DNA of 34,503 nt from an uncultured Candidatus Saccharibacteria bacterium (GTDB lineage Bacteria > Patescibacteriota > Saccharimonadia > Saccharimonadales > Saccharimonadaceae). Numbering within the stretch: the stretch's first letter is position 1; every line of letters begins with the position of its first letter. Shown one piece after another: positions 2,644 to 34,503 of this stretch. Location of the stretch: assembly GCA_947425245.1 (NCBI GenBank), contig CANDYU010000009.1, forward strand, positions 1 to 34,503, in the 5' to 3' direction. The notes beneath the pieces were generated by a model. The model was given only the letters and a program-made list of their open reading frames with translations, ran no database searches and was not told the DNA's origin. A program made the position numbers and the translations under genes.

Positions 2644-2848
2644 TTCGTCCGTAGCGGATTTATAGATATTAACCGTGGCACACTGTGGCGATTTGGAGAA
2701 AGTCTATACGCACAAACCGGTACCAATTATGATCCTAAAGCCAGCTATTATCTATACATTCACGAGCTTCATCTAGTCGTCACTTCAGAATACAGTAATC
2801 ACTGGCGTGCTTACTCCATCCGTTGTCTGGCGTACTAGGTTAGATAAG
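2644..2848 (+). repeat. Lectin-domain cassette 1 (silent, 64 codons)
   Basis: The plus strand begins with TTCGTCCGTAGCGG (FVRSG), stays open for 64 codons and ends with YSIRCLAY and a TAG stop (2836-2838), followed by the shared tail GTTAGATAAG. The ending resembles the C terminus of FISUMP-type domains, which have a C-type-lectin-like fold (family knowledge). There is no start codon or ribosome binding site. It is the most diverged cassette and lacks the GYxW and SGVxPS motifs of the others. The tail overlaps the last codons of gyrA, which is read from the opposite strand. Confidence 0.75.
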
Positions 2849-5395: not shown

Positions 5396-7393
5396 TTAAA
5401 AATCCAAATCATCCAAATTAACAGACGCTGCACCCGCCTGAATAAAGTTCTTACGCAAATCTACCTGATCACCCATCAACTTCGTAAACACCGCGTCTGC
5501 CTTCTCTGCATCATCAATATGCACTTGCACCAAAATCCGGTTCTCCGGATCCATCGTTGTCTCCCAGAGTTGCTTCGCATCCATCTCACCAAGACCTTTA
5601 AAACGATTCTGTGCTGTATAACCCGCTTGTTTAAACCTCTCCTGTGTCGGATCAATTTTTGTACCTGCCGCCTTCCGTTCTTCGATCTTTTCTGCCAATT
5701 TCTTCTCTAAAGCCACCTCATCATAAATATAATCAATCTTCCTATTCGCCCCTGTTCCTTTTGTCAAGCCAAACAGTGGCGGCTTCGCCAAATACACATG
5801 CCCAGCCTTAATCACCTCCGGCATATATCGAAAGAAGAATGTCATCAACAGCGTCGCAATATGCAAACCATCGACATCGGCATCTGTCATAAAAATCACT
5901 TTGTGATATCGCAAACCGTTAATATCAAACTGTTCGCCAATCCCCACTCCAAGCCCCTTAATCAAGCTCACCAGCTCTTGGTTCGCCAGCATCTTATCCA
6001 ACCTTGCTCGCTCCGTATTCAATACCTTACCCCGAAGCGGCAAAATCGCCTGAATCTTCGGATTACGCCCTTCTTTTGCCGATCCCGCCGCCGAGTTACC
6101 CTCAACGATAAACAACTCGCACTCGCTCCGGTCCCTAGAACTGCAATCTGCCAGCTTGCTTGGCAAATTCAACCCCTCAAATGCCCCCTTCCGAATCACA
6201 TTGTCTCGAGCCGCCCGTGCCGCTTTTCGTGCCCGTGCCGCCAAAGTAGCCTTGTTAATAATCTTCTTCGCAACTGCTGGATTCTCTTCAAGATAATAGC
6301 CGAAATACTCAGTCATCACCTTATCAACATAACCACGCACTTCAGGATTGCCCAGCTTATTCTTCGTCTGACCTTCAAACTGCGGATCCGGCAGTTTTAC
6401 CAAGATCACCGCCGTCAATCCTTCTTTGATATCATCACCAGTCAAATTCGGCTCTTTCTCCTTCAAAAGTCCGTTCTTCCTAGCATAATCATTAATTACC
6501 CGGTTCATCGCTGTCCTAAAGCCTACTACATGCATACCACCATCCGGCGTTAAAACATTATTCGCAAACGGCTTAATCGTCTCCGCATAGGTATCATTAT
6601 ATTGCAAAGCCACTTCCACCCCTGTGTCTTCAATATTCTTCTCTACATAGAAAATATCATCCGAAACCACCTCTTTCCCCTCATTCAACTTTCGAACATA
6701 ACTCCTAATTCCCCCATCAAAGTAAAAACTTTCCCGTGCCCCATCACGCTCATCCTTTACCGAAATTAAAATTCCCTTCGTAAGATATGCCTGATGCCGA
6801 GCATAATTTGACACCCATTCATAATCAAAAGTCGTCGTTTCCTTAAAAATCGACTGGTCTGGGTAAAAAGTAATTGAAGTCCCCGTCCCTTTCGTCTCCC
6901 CCACAATCTCCAACCCCTTACCAATAGTCTTTCCCCCGTTCTCAAACTCTACTCGATGGGTCTTCCCATTCTTTCGCACTTCGGCAATCATCTTCGTCGA
7001 CAGTGCATTCACTACACTCGAACCCACGCCATGTAAACCTGAACTTACCTTATATCCCCCACCGCCGAACTTACCACCGGCATTCAGAACCGTCAAAACC
7101 GTCTCTAAAGTGCTCTTACCCGTCTTAGGATGAATATCTACCGGAATACCACGACCATTGTCCACCACTCGAACGCCACCATCCTCCAATAGTGTAATCT
7201 CTACCCTTGTACAAAAACCCGCAATCGCCTCATCAATCGAGTTATCCGCAATCTCCTTCAAAAGATGATGAAGCCCATCAAACCCCGTCGATCCAATGTA
7301 CATGCCTGGACGAATCCGCACATGCTCCAACCCCTCTAAAACCTGAATCTGCGAACTATCATATTCCTGTCCCCCTGTTTGTTTTTCAGCCAT
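5396..7393 (-). CDS. gyrB: DNA gyrase subunit B
   Basis: A 665-aa ATPase subunit of DNA gyrase. GHKL motifs are clear: EIADNSIDEA (about residues 47-56), DNGRGIPV (about 98-105) and GGKFGGGGYKVSSGLHGVGS. The TOPRIM domain has EGNSAAGSAKEGR and DADVDGLHI, and the C-terminal gyrase B motif reads QNRFKGLGEMD. Asn replaces the common Asp in the EGDSA motif. The ATG is preceded by GAGG (spacing about 8), and a promoter with a -35/-10 pair lies about 36-64 bp upstream. GyrA follows after 18 bp. Confidence 0.97.
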   Translation of the reverse strand: MAEKQTGGQEYDSSQIQVLEGLEHVRIRPGMYIGSTGFDGLHHLLKEIADNSIDEAIAGFCTRVEITLLEDGGVRVVDNGRGIPVDIHPKTGKSTLETVLTVLNAGGKFGGGGYKVSSGLHGVGSSVVNALSTKMIAEVRKNGKTHRVEFENGGKTIGKGLEIVGETKGTGTSITFYPDQSIFKETTTFDYEWVSNYARHQAYLTKGILISVKDERDGARESFYFDGGIRSYVRKLNEGKEVVSDDIFYVEKNIEDTGVEVALQYNDTYAETIKPFANNVLTPDGGMHVVGFRTAMNRVINDYARKNGLLKEKEPNLTGDDIKEGLTAVILVKLPDPQFEGQTKNKLGNPEVRGYVDKVMTEYFGYYLEENPAVAKKIINKATLAARARKAARAARDNVIRKGAFEGLNLPSKLADCSSRDRSECELFIVEGNSAAGSAKEGRNPKIQAILPLRGKVLNTERARLDKMLANQELVSLIKGLGVGIGEQFDINGLRYHKVIFMTDADVDGLHIATLLMTFFFRYMPEVIKAGHVYLAKPPLFGLTKGTGANRKIDYIYDEVALEKKLAEKIEERKAAGTKIDPTQERFKQAGYTAQNRFKGLGEMDAKQLWETTMDPENRILVQVHIDDAEKADAVFTKLMGDQVDLRKNFIQAGAASVNLDDLDF

Positions 7394-13611: not shown

Positions 13612-13965
13612 TGGTGGAGCTGCCGGATACTGCCTCCGGGTCCGAAAAATCTCCATAATACCATTCTACATGCATAGTCATTTGTTTCGTCGGCGAACTC
13701 CCATAGCTGCAAATGACAAAACTATGGGCACCCTGATTATAATTGTCAGGATCAGGGTAATCACTCCCGTCACCTTATCACCGTAATATAATAATCTTCA
13801 GTCTACGGAGACTCAACCTCAGACCAGCTTAGTATATATTTCTAAGCAAAAGCAGGTGCGTAAAGCACATGCTTAGTAGTGTTTTTTGCACTTATTTATA
13901 ATACTTACGGTATCAATCGACATGCCTGGTATCTGTTAATAATTCGTCTAAGCTTTGTCAGCCCC
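13612..13965 (-). ncRNA. ssrA: Transfer-messenger RNA (tmRNA)
   Basis: A 354-nt RNA that rescues stalled ribosomes by trans-translation. The 5' end GGGGCTG pairs with CAGCTCC before the encoded ACCA at the 3' end. The T-arm is CCGGA-GGCAGTA-TCCGG, with the unusual loop also seen in two-piece tmRNAs of Alphaproteobacteria. The tag frame (13842-13889) starts with the resume codon GCA and reads AKNTTKHVLYAPAFA and TAG. A clear H-type pseudoknot is formed by CCCATAG/CTATGGG interleaved with GTCATTTG/CAAATGAC. The tag lacks the usual LAA end. A promoter lies upstream and a terminator downstream. The RNA overlaps no gene once comM is started at 14108. Confidence 0.93.
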
Positions 13966-17400: not shown

Positions 17401-17426
17401 AAAGGCCACTAAAAGTGGTCTTTTTT
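17401..17426. terminator. Bidirectional terminator between rpmB and RNase P RNA
   Basis: GGCCACT-AAA-AGTGGTC (17404-17420) is flanked by an A-run on the left and six T on the right. It ends the plus-strand operon, and in the other direction the RNase P RNA. Confidence 0.88.
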
Positions 17427-17794
17427 GAGTCCTCAATAAGCCGGGTTTTGTAACTCCTTCGCTAGAAGGAGTTGGCAGCCATCTATCTAGTCCCAAAATT
17501 ACTTCTAGGCTCCAGCGGTGAACGTGCATCCTCGGGCCGAGGTTCTTAGCACTCCTTGCAGCCAGTAGGGTTTGCCCCCAACCCATGTCACCATGGGTTG
17601 CTGTGAGCTCTTACCTCACTCTTTTCACCCTTACTGCAACCAGAACCACCAAATCAGCAGCTCCAAGTCACAGCGGTTTAAGTTTCTGTGGTACTTTCCC
17701 TATCCTCACGGACGGTCGCCGTTAGCGACTACCGTGCCCTACGCTGCCCGGACTTTCCTCTTGATAAATCAAGCGACTGCCTTTCAGACTCACC
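17426..17794 (-). ncRNA. rnpB: RNase P RNA, type A-like
   Basis: The RNA subunit of RNase P, which trims tRNA 5' leaders. On the minus strand it has GAGGAAAGTCCGGGC, AGGATAGGGAAAGT, CCACAGAAAC and the conserved ACAAAACCCGGCTTA near the 3' end. TGAGTC near the 5' end pairs with GACTCA at the 3' end to close P1. About 369 nt long. An extended -10 promoter lies just upstream and a bidirectional terminator overlaps the end. Confidence 0.95.
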
Positions 17795-19115: not shown

Positions 19116-19214
19116 GAGCGAGCCTCCATTATCCAACCTAGTCCACCAACTGAGAGACTCTCAAAAAATCGCATTTTCGGAAGAGCAAGCTTCTATTATC
19201 TAACCTAGTACGCC
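19116..19214. repeat. Duplicated, decayed cassette end
   Basis: The segment 19116-19147 (GAGCGAGCCTCCATTATCC and on) repeats 19183-19214 (GAGCAAGCTTCTATTATC and on) with scattered substitutions. The second copy is the real 3' end of cassette 2. The first reads as a decayed cassette end without the cassette body, as if an older cassette had been lost. Confidence 0.5.
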
Positions 19215-19414
19215 AGACAACGGATGGGGAAACCATAATAGCGATTCCATGGACCACTAGAAGGATTTAAGGTATCAGCAGAATATAATCCAAAAACCGA
19301 CGAAAGTTCCTGTTGAGTTTGCGGATTAATAGCCGCCATACTAGAACGCAGATAGCCTTCTGACAGACTACGCACATGCTCGCCAGGCTGATCTACGACA
19401 CCGCTACGGACGAA
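19205..19414 (-). repeat. Lectin-domain cassette 2 (silent, 69 codons)
   Basis: On the minus strand it begins FVRSG, stays open for 69 codons and ends with GFPIRCLAY, a TAG stop and GTTAGATAA. The tail NPSSGPWNRYYGFPIRCLAY fits a FISUMP-type C terminus. In-frame codons upstream lead only to a TTG without a ribosome binding site. It is the only cassette on the minus strand. A palindrome spans its 5' boundary. Confidence 0.75.
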
Positions 19415-19436
19415 CCCGTATAGCCTATACGGGTTC
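19412..19436. repeat. Palindrome at the 5' boundary of cassette 2
   Basis: A perfect inverted repeat with 12-bp arms GAACCCGTATAG and CTATACGGGTTC around a single base. The last TTC of the minus-strand arm is the first codon of the cassette. A partly decayed copy sits in the same place before cassette 4 (33303-33327). Confidence 0.75.
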
Positions 19437-19561
19437 AATTTAGTATTACCCCTGTTATTTTGGATAGATTTTGGGCTAATTAACTGAAAATTACCCTAAA
19501 AGCATGTTAAAAATGCTTCAACATGGTCTCGAGTTGCTATCTTAAATTCGCTAATATAAAC

Positions 19562-19777
19562 TTCGTCCATAGCGGTAGAATCATATTTACACATGGCGAC
19601 ATTCGGGAAGCTGGTCAAATTGGCGATTACTGGACACTTACCAGTGCTAATCGCCTTCGCTTAGACGAAGAAGATTTAGGGTCATATAATCTATGCTTTA
19701 ATGCTACTGGCGGATCCGGCTCTTGTGGACCAGACGGTCGCCATAACGCTTACCCCATCCGTTGTCTGGCGTACTAG
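19562..19777 (+). repeat. Lectin-domain cassette 3 (silent, 71 codons)
   Basis: Begins TTCGTCCATAGCGG (FVHSG), open for 71 codons, ends AYPIRCLAY and TAG, then GTTAGATAAG. The 216-bp length equals that of cassettes 4-7. It has GDYWTLTSA, matching GYxW in FISUMP-type domains. An in-frame ATG lies 39 bp upstream but has no ribosome binding site, so expression from here is doubtful. Two Cys residues (C55, C61) are unusual in this family here. A tail and the structured element A follow. Confidence 0.75.
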
Positions 19778-25371: not shown

Positions 25372-25448
25372 GGGTCGCTAACTCAGTTGGCTAGAGTGTC
25401 TCGTTTACACCGAGGAAGTCGGGGGTTCGAATCCCTCGCGACCCACCA
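25372..25448 (+). tRNA. tRNA-Val (anticodon TAC)
   Basis: Acceptor arms GGGTCGC/GCGACCC, D-arm with AGTTGGCTAG, anticodon loop TTTACAC (TAC) and T-arm GGGGGTTCGAATCCCTC all pair. The discriminator is A, and CCA is encoded (25446-25448). The CCA is the first part of a 17-bp hairpin downstream. Confidence 0.97.
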
Positions 25449-32673: not shown

Positions 32674-33243
32674 ATGAAAGACACTCGAGACGTAAAAATC
32701 ATCGCCATCGTCGGCATGAGCGGCAGCGGCAAATCAGTAGCAGTTGACTACCTCACTGAACAAGGTATCCCCAAGGTTTATCTTGGCGGCATGATCCTCA
32801 AAGAAATGACTAAGCGAGGCATAGACCTTACCCCCGATAATGAACGCGAGTTCCGAGAATACATCCGTGCCACCGAAGGTAACGATTGGGTCGTTCGTCA
32901 GGCCATCGCCGAAGTTAAGGACCTCATCGAAGCCGGCCAAAAACGCATCGTGCTTGACGGTGTTTATTCTTGGACCGAATATAAGACCTTGAAACATGAG
33001 TTCCCTGGCGAACTAACATTTATCGCCATGATTACCTCGAAACCGCTCCGCTACGAGCGTGTTGCTAAACGCCCCGAACGACCCTTCGACGCCCAAAAAA
33101 TCCGCGAACGCGACCAAAGTGAAATCGAAAACCTCGAAAAAGGTGGCCCCATCGTTGCTGCCGACTATTTCATTATTAATGACGGTACCATCCCCGAGAT
33201 GTACGAACAGCTAAAGCACATTCTTCGCAAAATCGATTCCTAA
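32674..33243 (+). CDS. P-loop nucleotide kinase-like protein
   Basis: A 189-aa P-loop protein with GMSGSGKS (about residues 14-21), LGGMILKEMTKRGI (lid and NMP-binding-like region) and RPERPFDAQKIRERDQSEI. It resembles dephospho-CoA kinase and UPF0200-type kinases. The exact substrate is unsure: dephospho-CoA or a nucleoside monophosphate. A leaderless promoter and two 19-bp palindromes lie upstream. A cassette island follows after about 80 bp. Confidence 0.7.
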   Translation: MKDTRDVKIIAIVGMSGSGKSVAVDYLTEQGIPKVYLGGMILKEMTKRGIDLTPDNEREFREYIRATEGNDWVVRQAIAEVKDLIEAGQKRIVLDGVYSWTEYKTLKHEFPGELTFIAMITSKPLRYERVAKRPERPFDAQKIRERDQSEIENLEKGGPIVAADYFIINDGTIPEMYEQLKHILRKIDS

Positions 33244-33302
33244 CTCAGTTTCCGCTCAATTAACCCAAAACCTGACCAAAATAACAGAAGTGATTTCAAT
33301 TT

Positions 33303-33327
33303 GAACCCGTATAGCCTATACTAGTTC
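33303..33327. repeat. Palindrome before cassette 4
   Basis: GAACCCGTATAG, one base, then CTATACTAGTTC, a partly decayed copy of the palindrome at 19412-19436. A TAG stop (33322-33324) lies directly before the first cassette codon. Confidence 0.65.
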
Positions 33328-33540
33328 GTCCGTAGCGGATACGCCCATCGTGCCAACGGCTCTGCCCGGTATCTTGGCCTCTATGGCTACAATTGGCCTA
33401 CTACGGCTTCACCCGTTCACGGCGATGGATCAGCTGGTTGGACAGGTTACTACCTCTATTTCGGTGCTAGTGGCGTCAACCCGTCGGGCGGTCCAGACAG
33501 TCGTTGGCATGGTTTCCCCATCCGTTGTCTGGCGTACTAG
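33325..33540 (+). repeat. Lectin-domain cassette 4 (silent, 71 codons)
   Basis: Begins TTCGTCCGTAGCGG (FVRSG), 216 bp including TAG, then GTTAGATAAG. It has GSARYLG, GYNWPTTASPV, TGYYLYF and SGVNPSGGPD, ending GFPIRCLAY, which fits a FISUMP-type domain end. A TAG stop right before the first codon rules out translation from upstream in this frame. No start codon. Confidence 0.8.
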
Positions 33541-33578
33541 GTTAGATAAGAGAAGCCAGCAAATAGTGTCAATCAAAA

Positions 33579-33794
33579 AACGTCCGTAGCGGATATGTCG
33601 ATCGCAGCGACGGATCTGCCCATCCTCTTGGCCTCAATGGCTACAATTGGTCGTCTACGGCTTCGCCCGTCTACAGCCTTGGGTCTGCTGGTTTGACAGG
33701 TTACTACCTCGATTTTAATGCTAGTGGCGTCTTCCCGTCGGGCGGCCCGGACCATCGTTGGGACGGTTTCCCCATCCGTTGTCTGGCGTACTAG
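33579..33794 (+). repeat. Lectin-domain cassette 5 (silent, 71 codons)
   Basis: Same length and ends as cassette 4, but its first codon is AAC (NVRSG). Has GYNWSSTASPV, TGYYLDF and SGVFPSGGPDHRWDGFPIRCLAY. It is one of three most alike copies (4, 5 and 7). The next cassette begins 6 bp after its stop. Confidence 0.8.
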
Positions 33795-33800
33795 GTTAGA

Positions 33801-34016
33801 TTCGTCCGTAGCGACGTTCTTGATCATTACGGTGGCACATTACGCAATACTGGCGTTAATAGTTACATTTGGACTACCACTACCTCTACTGTCTACTATA
33901 ATGGAACAAATGGCATAACAGGCTACTATCTCGGTCTCTATACCAGCAGTGTTAATTCTTCGGGTGGACCAGATGTGCGTTGGCTCGCTTTCCCCATCCG
34001 TTGTCTGGCGTACTAG
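33801..34016 (+). repeat. Lectin-domain cassette 6 (silent, 71 codons)
   Basis: 216 bp, starts FVRSDV and ends AFPIRCLAY. It is more diverged: SYIWTTTTSTVYYNG replaces the GYxW segment of its neighbours, and YTSSVNSSGG replaces SGVxPSxG. It directly follows cassette 5 in the same frame; only TAG-GTT-AGA separates the two. Confidence 0.8.
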
Positions 34017-34069
34017 GTTAGATAAGATCCGAACTTAATATCGCATATAATATACCGTCACAAAACGAC

Positions 34070-34285
34070 TTCGTCCGTAGCGGGGTCGTCCGTCGCGACA
34101 ACGGCTCTGCCCGGTATCTTGGCGTCAATGGCTACTATTGGTCGACTACGGCTTCGCCCGTTTACAACGATGGGTCTGCTAGTTTGGCAGGTTACAGCCT
34201 CGGTTTCGATGCTAGTGGCGTCAGCCCGTCGAACGGCCCGTACCGTCGTTGGTACGCTTTCCCCATCCGTTGTCTGGCGTACTAG
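34070..34285 (+). repeat. Lectin-domain cassette 7 (silent, 71 codons)
   Basis: 216 bp, starts FVRSGVVRRDNG and ends AFPIRCLAY. GYYWSTTASPVYNDG and SGVSPSNGPYRRWYA match FISUMP-type domains. After the stop comes the same tail (GTTAGATAAGTTTAG) as after cassette 3, then structured element B. CGTCCGT occurs twice near the start, as if the end were partly duplicated. Confidence 0.8.
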
Positions 34286-34370
34286 GTTAGATAAGTTTAG
34301 GTATTATACTTTTGCAGCTACAATACAGTATTAGGATATCCCCAAAGTTAGGAGTATAAATAATATATCT

Positions 34371-34496
34371 CTTTCACCGCGTCGAAGGTGTGGTTGGGTT
34401 TTCTAGTCTTGATTATTCTAGGCTGACGCGGGTCTGAGTCTTTAGACGAAGAGAGCGTCACCAGACTAGAAAACCAACCACCCTCGCAGGTGAAAG
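34371..34496 (+). ncRNA. 126-bp structured element, copy B
   Basis: Differs from copy A (19867-19992) at one base, T for C in the innermost stem, where G-U pairing keeps the helix. About 20 bp upstream of the element (AATATATCTC and more) are also shared. It follows cassette 7 as copy A follows cassette 3. The window ends a few bases later. Confidence 0.7.
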
Positions 34497-34503
34497 GAAT
34501 ATA

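Follow-up and report, generated by a model that had tools for sequence, protein, structure and literature searches.

Dispersed, apparently silent VR copies of a diversity-generating retroelement in a Candidatus Saccharibacteria genome: a probable archive for one surface gene

The DNA analyzed here, hereafter the window, is a complete contig of 34,503 nucleotides (C9) from the draft genome G000 of an uncultured Candidatus Saccharibacteria bacterium (882,450 bases, 22 contigs, 95.7% complete, 0.05% contamination). It contains seven short open segments, which we call cassettes and which we compared with a template repeat (TR) found on another contig of the same genome. By sequence, they appear to be silent copies of the variable region (VR) of a diversity-generating retroelement (DGR).

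2644-2838, plus strand: silent VR cassette, 64 codons plus TAG, body among the most divergent from the TR
13612-13965, minus strand: tmRNA, ordinary
17422-17792, minus strand: RNase P RNA class A, ordinary
19205-19414, minus strand: silent VR cassette, 69 codons plus stop, head-to-head with the cassette at 19562
19562-19777, plus strand: silent VR cassette, 71 codons plus stop, TR-divergent body
25372-25445, plus strand: tRNA, ordinary
33325-33540, plus strand: silent VR cassette, 20/45 adenines and 14/153 other bases changed versus the TR
33579-33794, plus strand: silent VR cassette, 21/45 adenines and 11/153 other bases changed versus the TR
33801-34016, plus strand: silent VR cassette, diverged body, 57/153 non-adenine bases changed
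34070-34285, plus strand: silent VR cassette, young, 20/45 adenines and 4/153 other bases changed versus the TR

The 5' motif TTCGTCCGTAGCGG marks the start of each cassette with 0-2 mismatches, i.e., at 2644 (+), 19414 (-), 19562 (+), 33325, 33579, 33801 and 34070 (+); at up to three mismatches the window holds ten matches versus a chance expectation of 1.5. The second cassette of the array, at 33579, starts with AACGTCCG, which deviates from the motif at bases one and two, so that its first codon is AAC for TTC. A first-pass annotation of the window had described seven segments with common start and end codons, and we found all of them where it had placed them, open to IRCLAY and the stop codon and followed by GTTAGAT(AAG). 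The lengths that it gave, 195, 210 and five times 216 bp including the stop, were likewise correct and the frames are open. It had further noted a stop right before the fourth cassette, seen as a TAG directly 5' of 33325, and a lack of convincing start signals, which holds genome-wide for the 56 of 83 cassettes that have no in-frame start codon before the upstream stop. Cassette 33801 starts within the GTTAGAT end of its predecessor. GTTAGAT also fits GTTRRRY and resembles an attC core; integron-like cassettes were set aside solely on finding adenine-biased copies of the TR.

Palindromic sequences lie beside many cassettes. An intergenic palindromic repeat (CAGAGGTAATTTCAA..GAACCCGTATAGCCTATACGGGTTC), present at 33265-33324, at 19415-19460 and at about 15 other sites, is interrupted near its center by cassettes, and cassette 33325 is preceded by one half of it (..GAACCCGTATAGCCTATACTAG). 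At the joint, TTC is common to repeat and cassette, and a target-site duplication is not established. On the 3' side of the last cassette, 34360-34503 forms a large imperfect palindrome (TTTCACC...GGTGAAA; z -4.9 as folded DNA), and related repeats are found 3' of many other cassettes.

Further copies, which the first-pass annotation had advised looking for, occur across the genome. Searches of G000 gave 66 DNA matches and 88 protein matches, and about 81 cassettes remained after excluding the template, the expressed gene and contig-end fragments. Every one of them starts with (C)TTCGTCCGTAGCGG or a near variant. The 3' end is CCCCATCCGTTGTCTGGCGTACTAGGTTAGATAAG or close to it in nearly all, and CCGTTGTCCACGCTCCTGACGTCGCTGACAG in five, namely C5:65105, C16:15769, C2:86890, C1:74614 and C1:126571; these five end in IRCPRS and the stop codon and have downstream sequence in common. 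ORFs of at least 150 aa take up no more than 1.6% of cassette bases, compared with 74% of the examined sequence, and a start with a Shine-Dalgarno (SD)-like motif was found in only one of the 83 cassettes. Because of this placement and the missing start codons, we regard the cassettes as almost all intergenic and, as far as sequence tells, silent, rather than as tails of separately expressed genes. The 3' end gave no match in viral contigs, and we saw no phage carriage.

A reverse transcriptase (RT) near another copy, which the first-pass annotation had suggested looking for, is present on contig C11. It is the sole RT gene found in G000, encodes 394 aa with the motifs IGNLTSQ and YVDD, and matches PF00078. 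Its best solved relatives are 8ub7 and eight further entries (E 6e-23), which we take to be the BPP-1 DGR RT. We assign it to the DGR type by motif, TR/VR pattern and sequence matches. An upstream ORF of 358 aa overlaps the RT start, and relatives have a conserved counterpart next to their RT (27-74% identity); we looked for an Avd-type accessory protein and obtained no family match for this ORF in Pfam, NCBIfam or PHROG. The TR lies at C11:25702, 350 bp downstream of the RT, and carries asparagine (AAY) codons at its variable positions. Its 3' end is distinct, CCCCGTCCGTTGTCTGAGTTTATCTCGCGG versus CCCCATCCGTTGTCTGGCGTACTAG in the VR, a putative IMH*/IMH pair. The cassettes have the VR-type end, i.e., the stop codon and GTTAGATAAG, and the TR has neither. 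In young cassettes 18-53% of the TR adenines are changed versus mostly about 1-5% of the other bases. Over the whole set, adenine change reaches a plateau near one half, and non-adenine change spans 1% to 58%.

Exactly one long gene is attached to a cassette start, on contig C20. It encodes 572 aa up to the contig end, with a signal-peptide-like N terminus and a FISUMP-like region, a candidate C-type-lectin-like domain (matches below cut-off: TIGR02145, E 1e-6; PF09603, E 0.02), and runs into the VR start motif, which places the VR at the 3' end of the target gene, i.e., at the C terminus of the protein. The contig breaks off within the VR; in the 86 visible bases there are four differences from the TR, 4/4 at TR adenines. 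The first-pass annotation had advised a search for full-length genes with the ends of the cassettes, and TTCGTCCGTAGCGG is indeed common to C20 and the cassettes, which have their 3' boundary in common with a second gene copy on contig C6. In G000 as a whole PF09603 matched weakly at five loci, of which those on C10 and C1 are paralogues without a VR. Given the RT and TR on C11, the adenine-biased differences and the C20 VR, the cassettes are almost certainly VR copies of a DGR.

The cassette ends are conserved irrespective of the age of the body. Mismatches per site amount to 0.7% (5') and 1.1% (3') in old cassettes, compared with 0.3% and 1.0% in young ones, and the mean body divergence of old cassettes is 44% at non-A sites. 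Divergence in place would have changed the ends as well, unless these are under strong selection. Moreover, internal stops occur in 0 of 66 cassettes, whereas 34 of 66 would be expected if non-adenine changes were neutral (at least 24 in every one of 1000 simulations); C4:70220, a copy outside these 66, is cut off by a stop at its end. Since the ends are conserved and stops are absent, the old bodies evolved under coding constraint and were probably copied recently. Direct signs of copying come from exact twins whose sites are unrelated and differently flanked: C9:34070 and C1:122904 are identical over 236 nt, and C13:9584 and C4:55150, which have an old body, over 228 nt. At TR position 113 the present TR has C, but the cassettes have G in 54/66 and C in 3/66, so that most of them were made from an earlier template.

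On contig C6 we found a 5'-truncated copy of the surface gene end, in which about 270 nt match C20 and the VR, fused to the gene's constant region, is the exact body of cassette 2644-2838. The identity extends over 212 nt, beginning with the AC that precedes the start motif and ending with GTTAGATAAGAGTAT; it is lost abruptly at either end and is compatible with copying in either direction. This exact recurrence of one body in surface-gene sequence context speaks against decayed copies without exchange, a possibility that the first-pass annotation had named. Upstream of the C6 gene copy lie a leader and a strong hairpin, which together with the copy make up a hairpin-led unit (C6:59230-59863), and related genomes carry comparable units.

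L226:1700-2364 (G000:C6): leader, strong hairpin and 5'-truncated surface-gene fragment
L254:1480-1639 (G096:C15): leader, strong hairpin and 5'-truncated surface-gene fragment
L246:4100-4306 (G040:C6): leader, strong hairpin and 5'-truncated surface-gene fragment
L163, about 6200-6700, minus strand (G024:C9): hairpin-like leader and surface-gene fragment

The leader core GCGTCTYTATTCCSCTTATGS occurs once each in G000, G096 and G040 and is absent in nine other genomes searched. In G096 and G040 it is followed by a hairpin and a fragment of the genome's own surface gene, truncated differently. In the analogous unit of G024, a promoter close to the consensus (11/12) is accompanied by a hairpin-like leader and by a gene fragment that includes the VR and its end; a sigma-70 promoter scan of the C6 unit gave no site on the unit's strand. 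There is one such unit per genome, and the VR with its end is present where the contig extends far enough. The obvious idea is that the unit could be transcribed and serve as donor or intermediate. The full-length surface gene of G024 (C27) itself has an old-type VR, 34% off all compared TRs at non-adenine sites. Together with the C6 copy this means that old-type bodies do occur in gene context.

Of the 99 genomes that the genus comprises in the collection, 57 have RT homologues. Large dispersed cassette sets were seen in the three whose RTs are closest (72-73% identity), with 80 matches in G040, 80 in G096 and 128 in G024; all relatives are represented by draft MAGs, and for G024 a contamination of 7% is flagged. 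In G096 51% of the adenines are changed between TR and cassettes versus 4.7% of other bases (p 4e-103), and in G024 32% versus 6.4% (p 3e-36). The cassette ends differ by species. Genomes with RTs of 53-57% identity gave 2-9 matches each, where checked mostly TRs or long genes. G014, G041 and G057 (RT 66-68%) gave 10-26 cassette matches, but 16-22 for the surface gene's constant region, and possibly represent an ancestral, many-target state. The site after gene 32674-33243 is occupied in three species by cassettes whose bodies are unrelated and whose ends are those of the respective species, and G014, G041 and G040 have none there; a second compared site is empty in G001, G027 and G034.

TR-type copies number one in G000, one in G096, five in G024 and 11 in G040. 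The TR-type 3' flank (GGTGCCGATCTTT) of those in G040 (11) and G024 (5) lies mostly away from a close RT, i.e., there are several templates per DGR. In G024 and G040, TR bodies could not be told from VR bodies by their A content, and we therefore do not claim that mutated bodies move into TRs.

We propose, with a probability of roughly 0.6, that the DGR is coupled to an archive of silent VR copies, with sequence exchange between this archive and one expressed gene. The RT would copy TR RNA into adenine-randomized cDNA, which would replace the VR of the surface gene. VR bodies would then be copied out with fixed boundaries to intergenic sites and pile up there as an archive of earlier VRs, from which they could return by recombination at the shared ends, either to the surface gene or to the second unit of leader, hairpin, gene fragment and VR. 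A cell could thus both mutate its tips and re-use past ones. That the cassettes act as archive or donor at all is, on the sequence evidence, about as probable as the whole. A more specific version, in which the archive is heritable, the DGR rewrites the tip while old tips are stored, and the hairpin-led unit reloads the expressed gene, perhaps via RNA and the same RT, is put forward tentatively. The first-pass annotation had proposed a reservoir of domain pieces for the end of a surface protein; silent pieces with fixed ends and one full-length gene agree with this, and it had missed the DGR as engine and the leader-hairpin-VR unit.

Scattered intergenic sites, fixed ends and exact twins at unrelated places would equally be expected of selfish copies, i.e., a 215-bp non-autonomous retroelement that uses the DGR RT and has neither a return path nor a use to the cell. 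Several palindromic repeats sit in the same intergenic sites, and, as the variable-site codons of the TR are mostly AAY, stops cannot arise by adenine changes alone. Nevertheless, we consider this reading unlikely: up to 58% of non-A sites are changed and yet neither stops nor frameshifts arose, which requires coding constraint, and old bodies are seen in surface-gene context (C6, the G024 VR). Moreover, the ends correspond to the surface gene's own, including the stop codon, and vary by species, and same-genus genomes with RTs of about 55% identity give only the 2-9 matches mentioned.

The cassettes could also be DGR targets, each rewritten in place by retrohoming, with the age of a body marking its last rewrite and the set as a by-product of spreading homing sites. 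Every cassette has a TR-homologous start and a VR-type end; some bodies are patchworks, e.g., C1:75486, where the 3' half has 96 nt exact to the TR; and three species have unrelated bodies with their own ends at the site after 32674-33243. However, the exact twins, old bodies included, need copying of finished bodies rather than new mutagenesis, and with the TR's C at position 113 in only 3/66 full-length cassettes most do not stem from the present TR. We hence judge rewriting in place to be improbable, more so than selfish copying.

An inflation of copy number by assembly artefact or contamination, which contig breaks at cassettes (ends of C5, C7, C8, C10, C15 and C20) and the contamination of G024 might suggest, is very improbable, as most cassettes are internal to their contigs and have flanks of their own, the pattern is repeated in G040, G096 and G024, and G000 is itself nearly complete and clean. 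Small expressed genes, finally, would agree with the open, stop-free frames but are scarcely credible, as in-frame starts are missing in 56/83, an SD-like start occurs once, and the start FVRSG is internal to the frame that encodes the full-length protein.

DGRs are thought to be memoryless, every homing event erasing the prior variant. If the archive reading is true, about 80 old variants would be kept silent, in several Saccharibacteria species, and targeted mutagenesis would be joined to cassette switching, the other of the two great ways of varying a surface. The archive would sit in genomes that are reduced and for which such DNA is a cost; cultivated members of the group live on host cells. 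The cassettes also keep a series of past template sequences, from which the history of a DGR can be read directly.

DGRs are common in Patescibacteria, and CPR bacteria are rich in them (Roux et al. 2021, PMC8144416). The system described here resembles BPP-1-type DGRs and Patescibacteria DGR clade 2 (PMC8144416) in its GxxxSQ RT, the ORF overlapping the RT start and the downstream TR, as well as in adenine-specific TR-to-VR differences and a C-terminal VR in a surface-type protein. It differs from the published DGRs that we consulted, where extra VRs lie in coding genes, by its roughly 81 silent intergenic copies with VR-type ends, by the 5-11 TR copies in two relatives (G024, G040) and by the 358-aa partner ORF without a family match. 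One DGR acting on VRs distant from its RT is known from cyanobacteria, with 76 remote targets in 21 genomes in CLec-encoding genes (PMC7517822), and from Treponema denticola (PMC4891356); those remote targets are genes and no archive was described, whereas the cassettes here have no start signals. In the open-access literature that we searched, we found no DGR with silent VR copies or joined to silent cassettes. One expression site, many silent partial copies, short shared boundaries and mosaic bodies are features that the system shares with vlsE of Borrelia and pilE/pilS of Neisseria. The vls cassettes form a contiguous set and share about 90% identity with vlsE (PMC11499132); in contrast, those described here are dispersed genome-wide, divergence among their bodies reaches about 50%, and reverse transcription would be the source of new variants.
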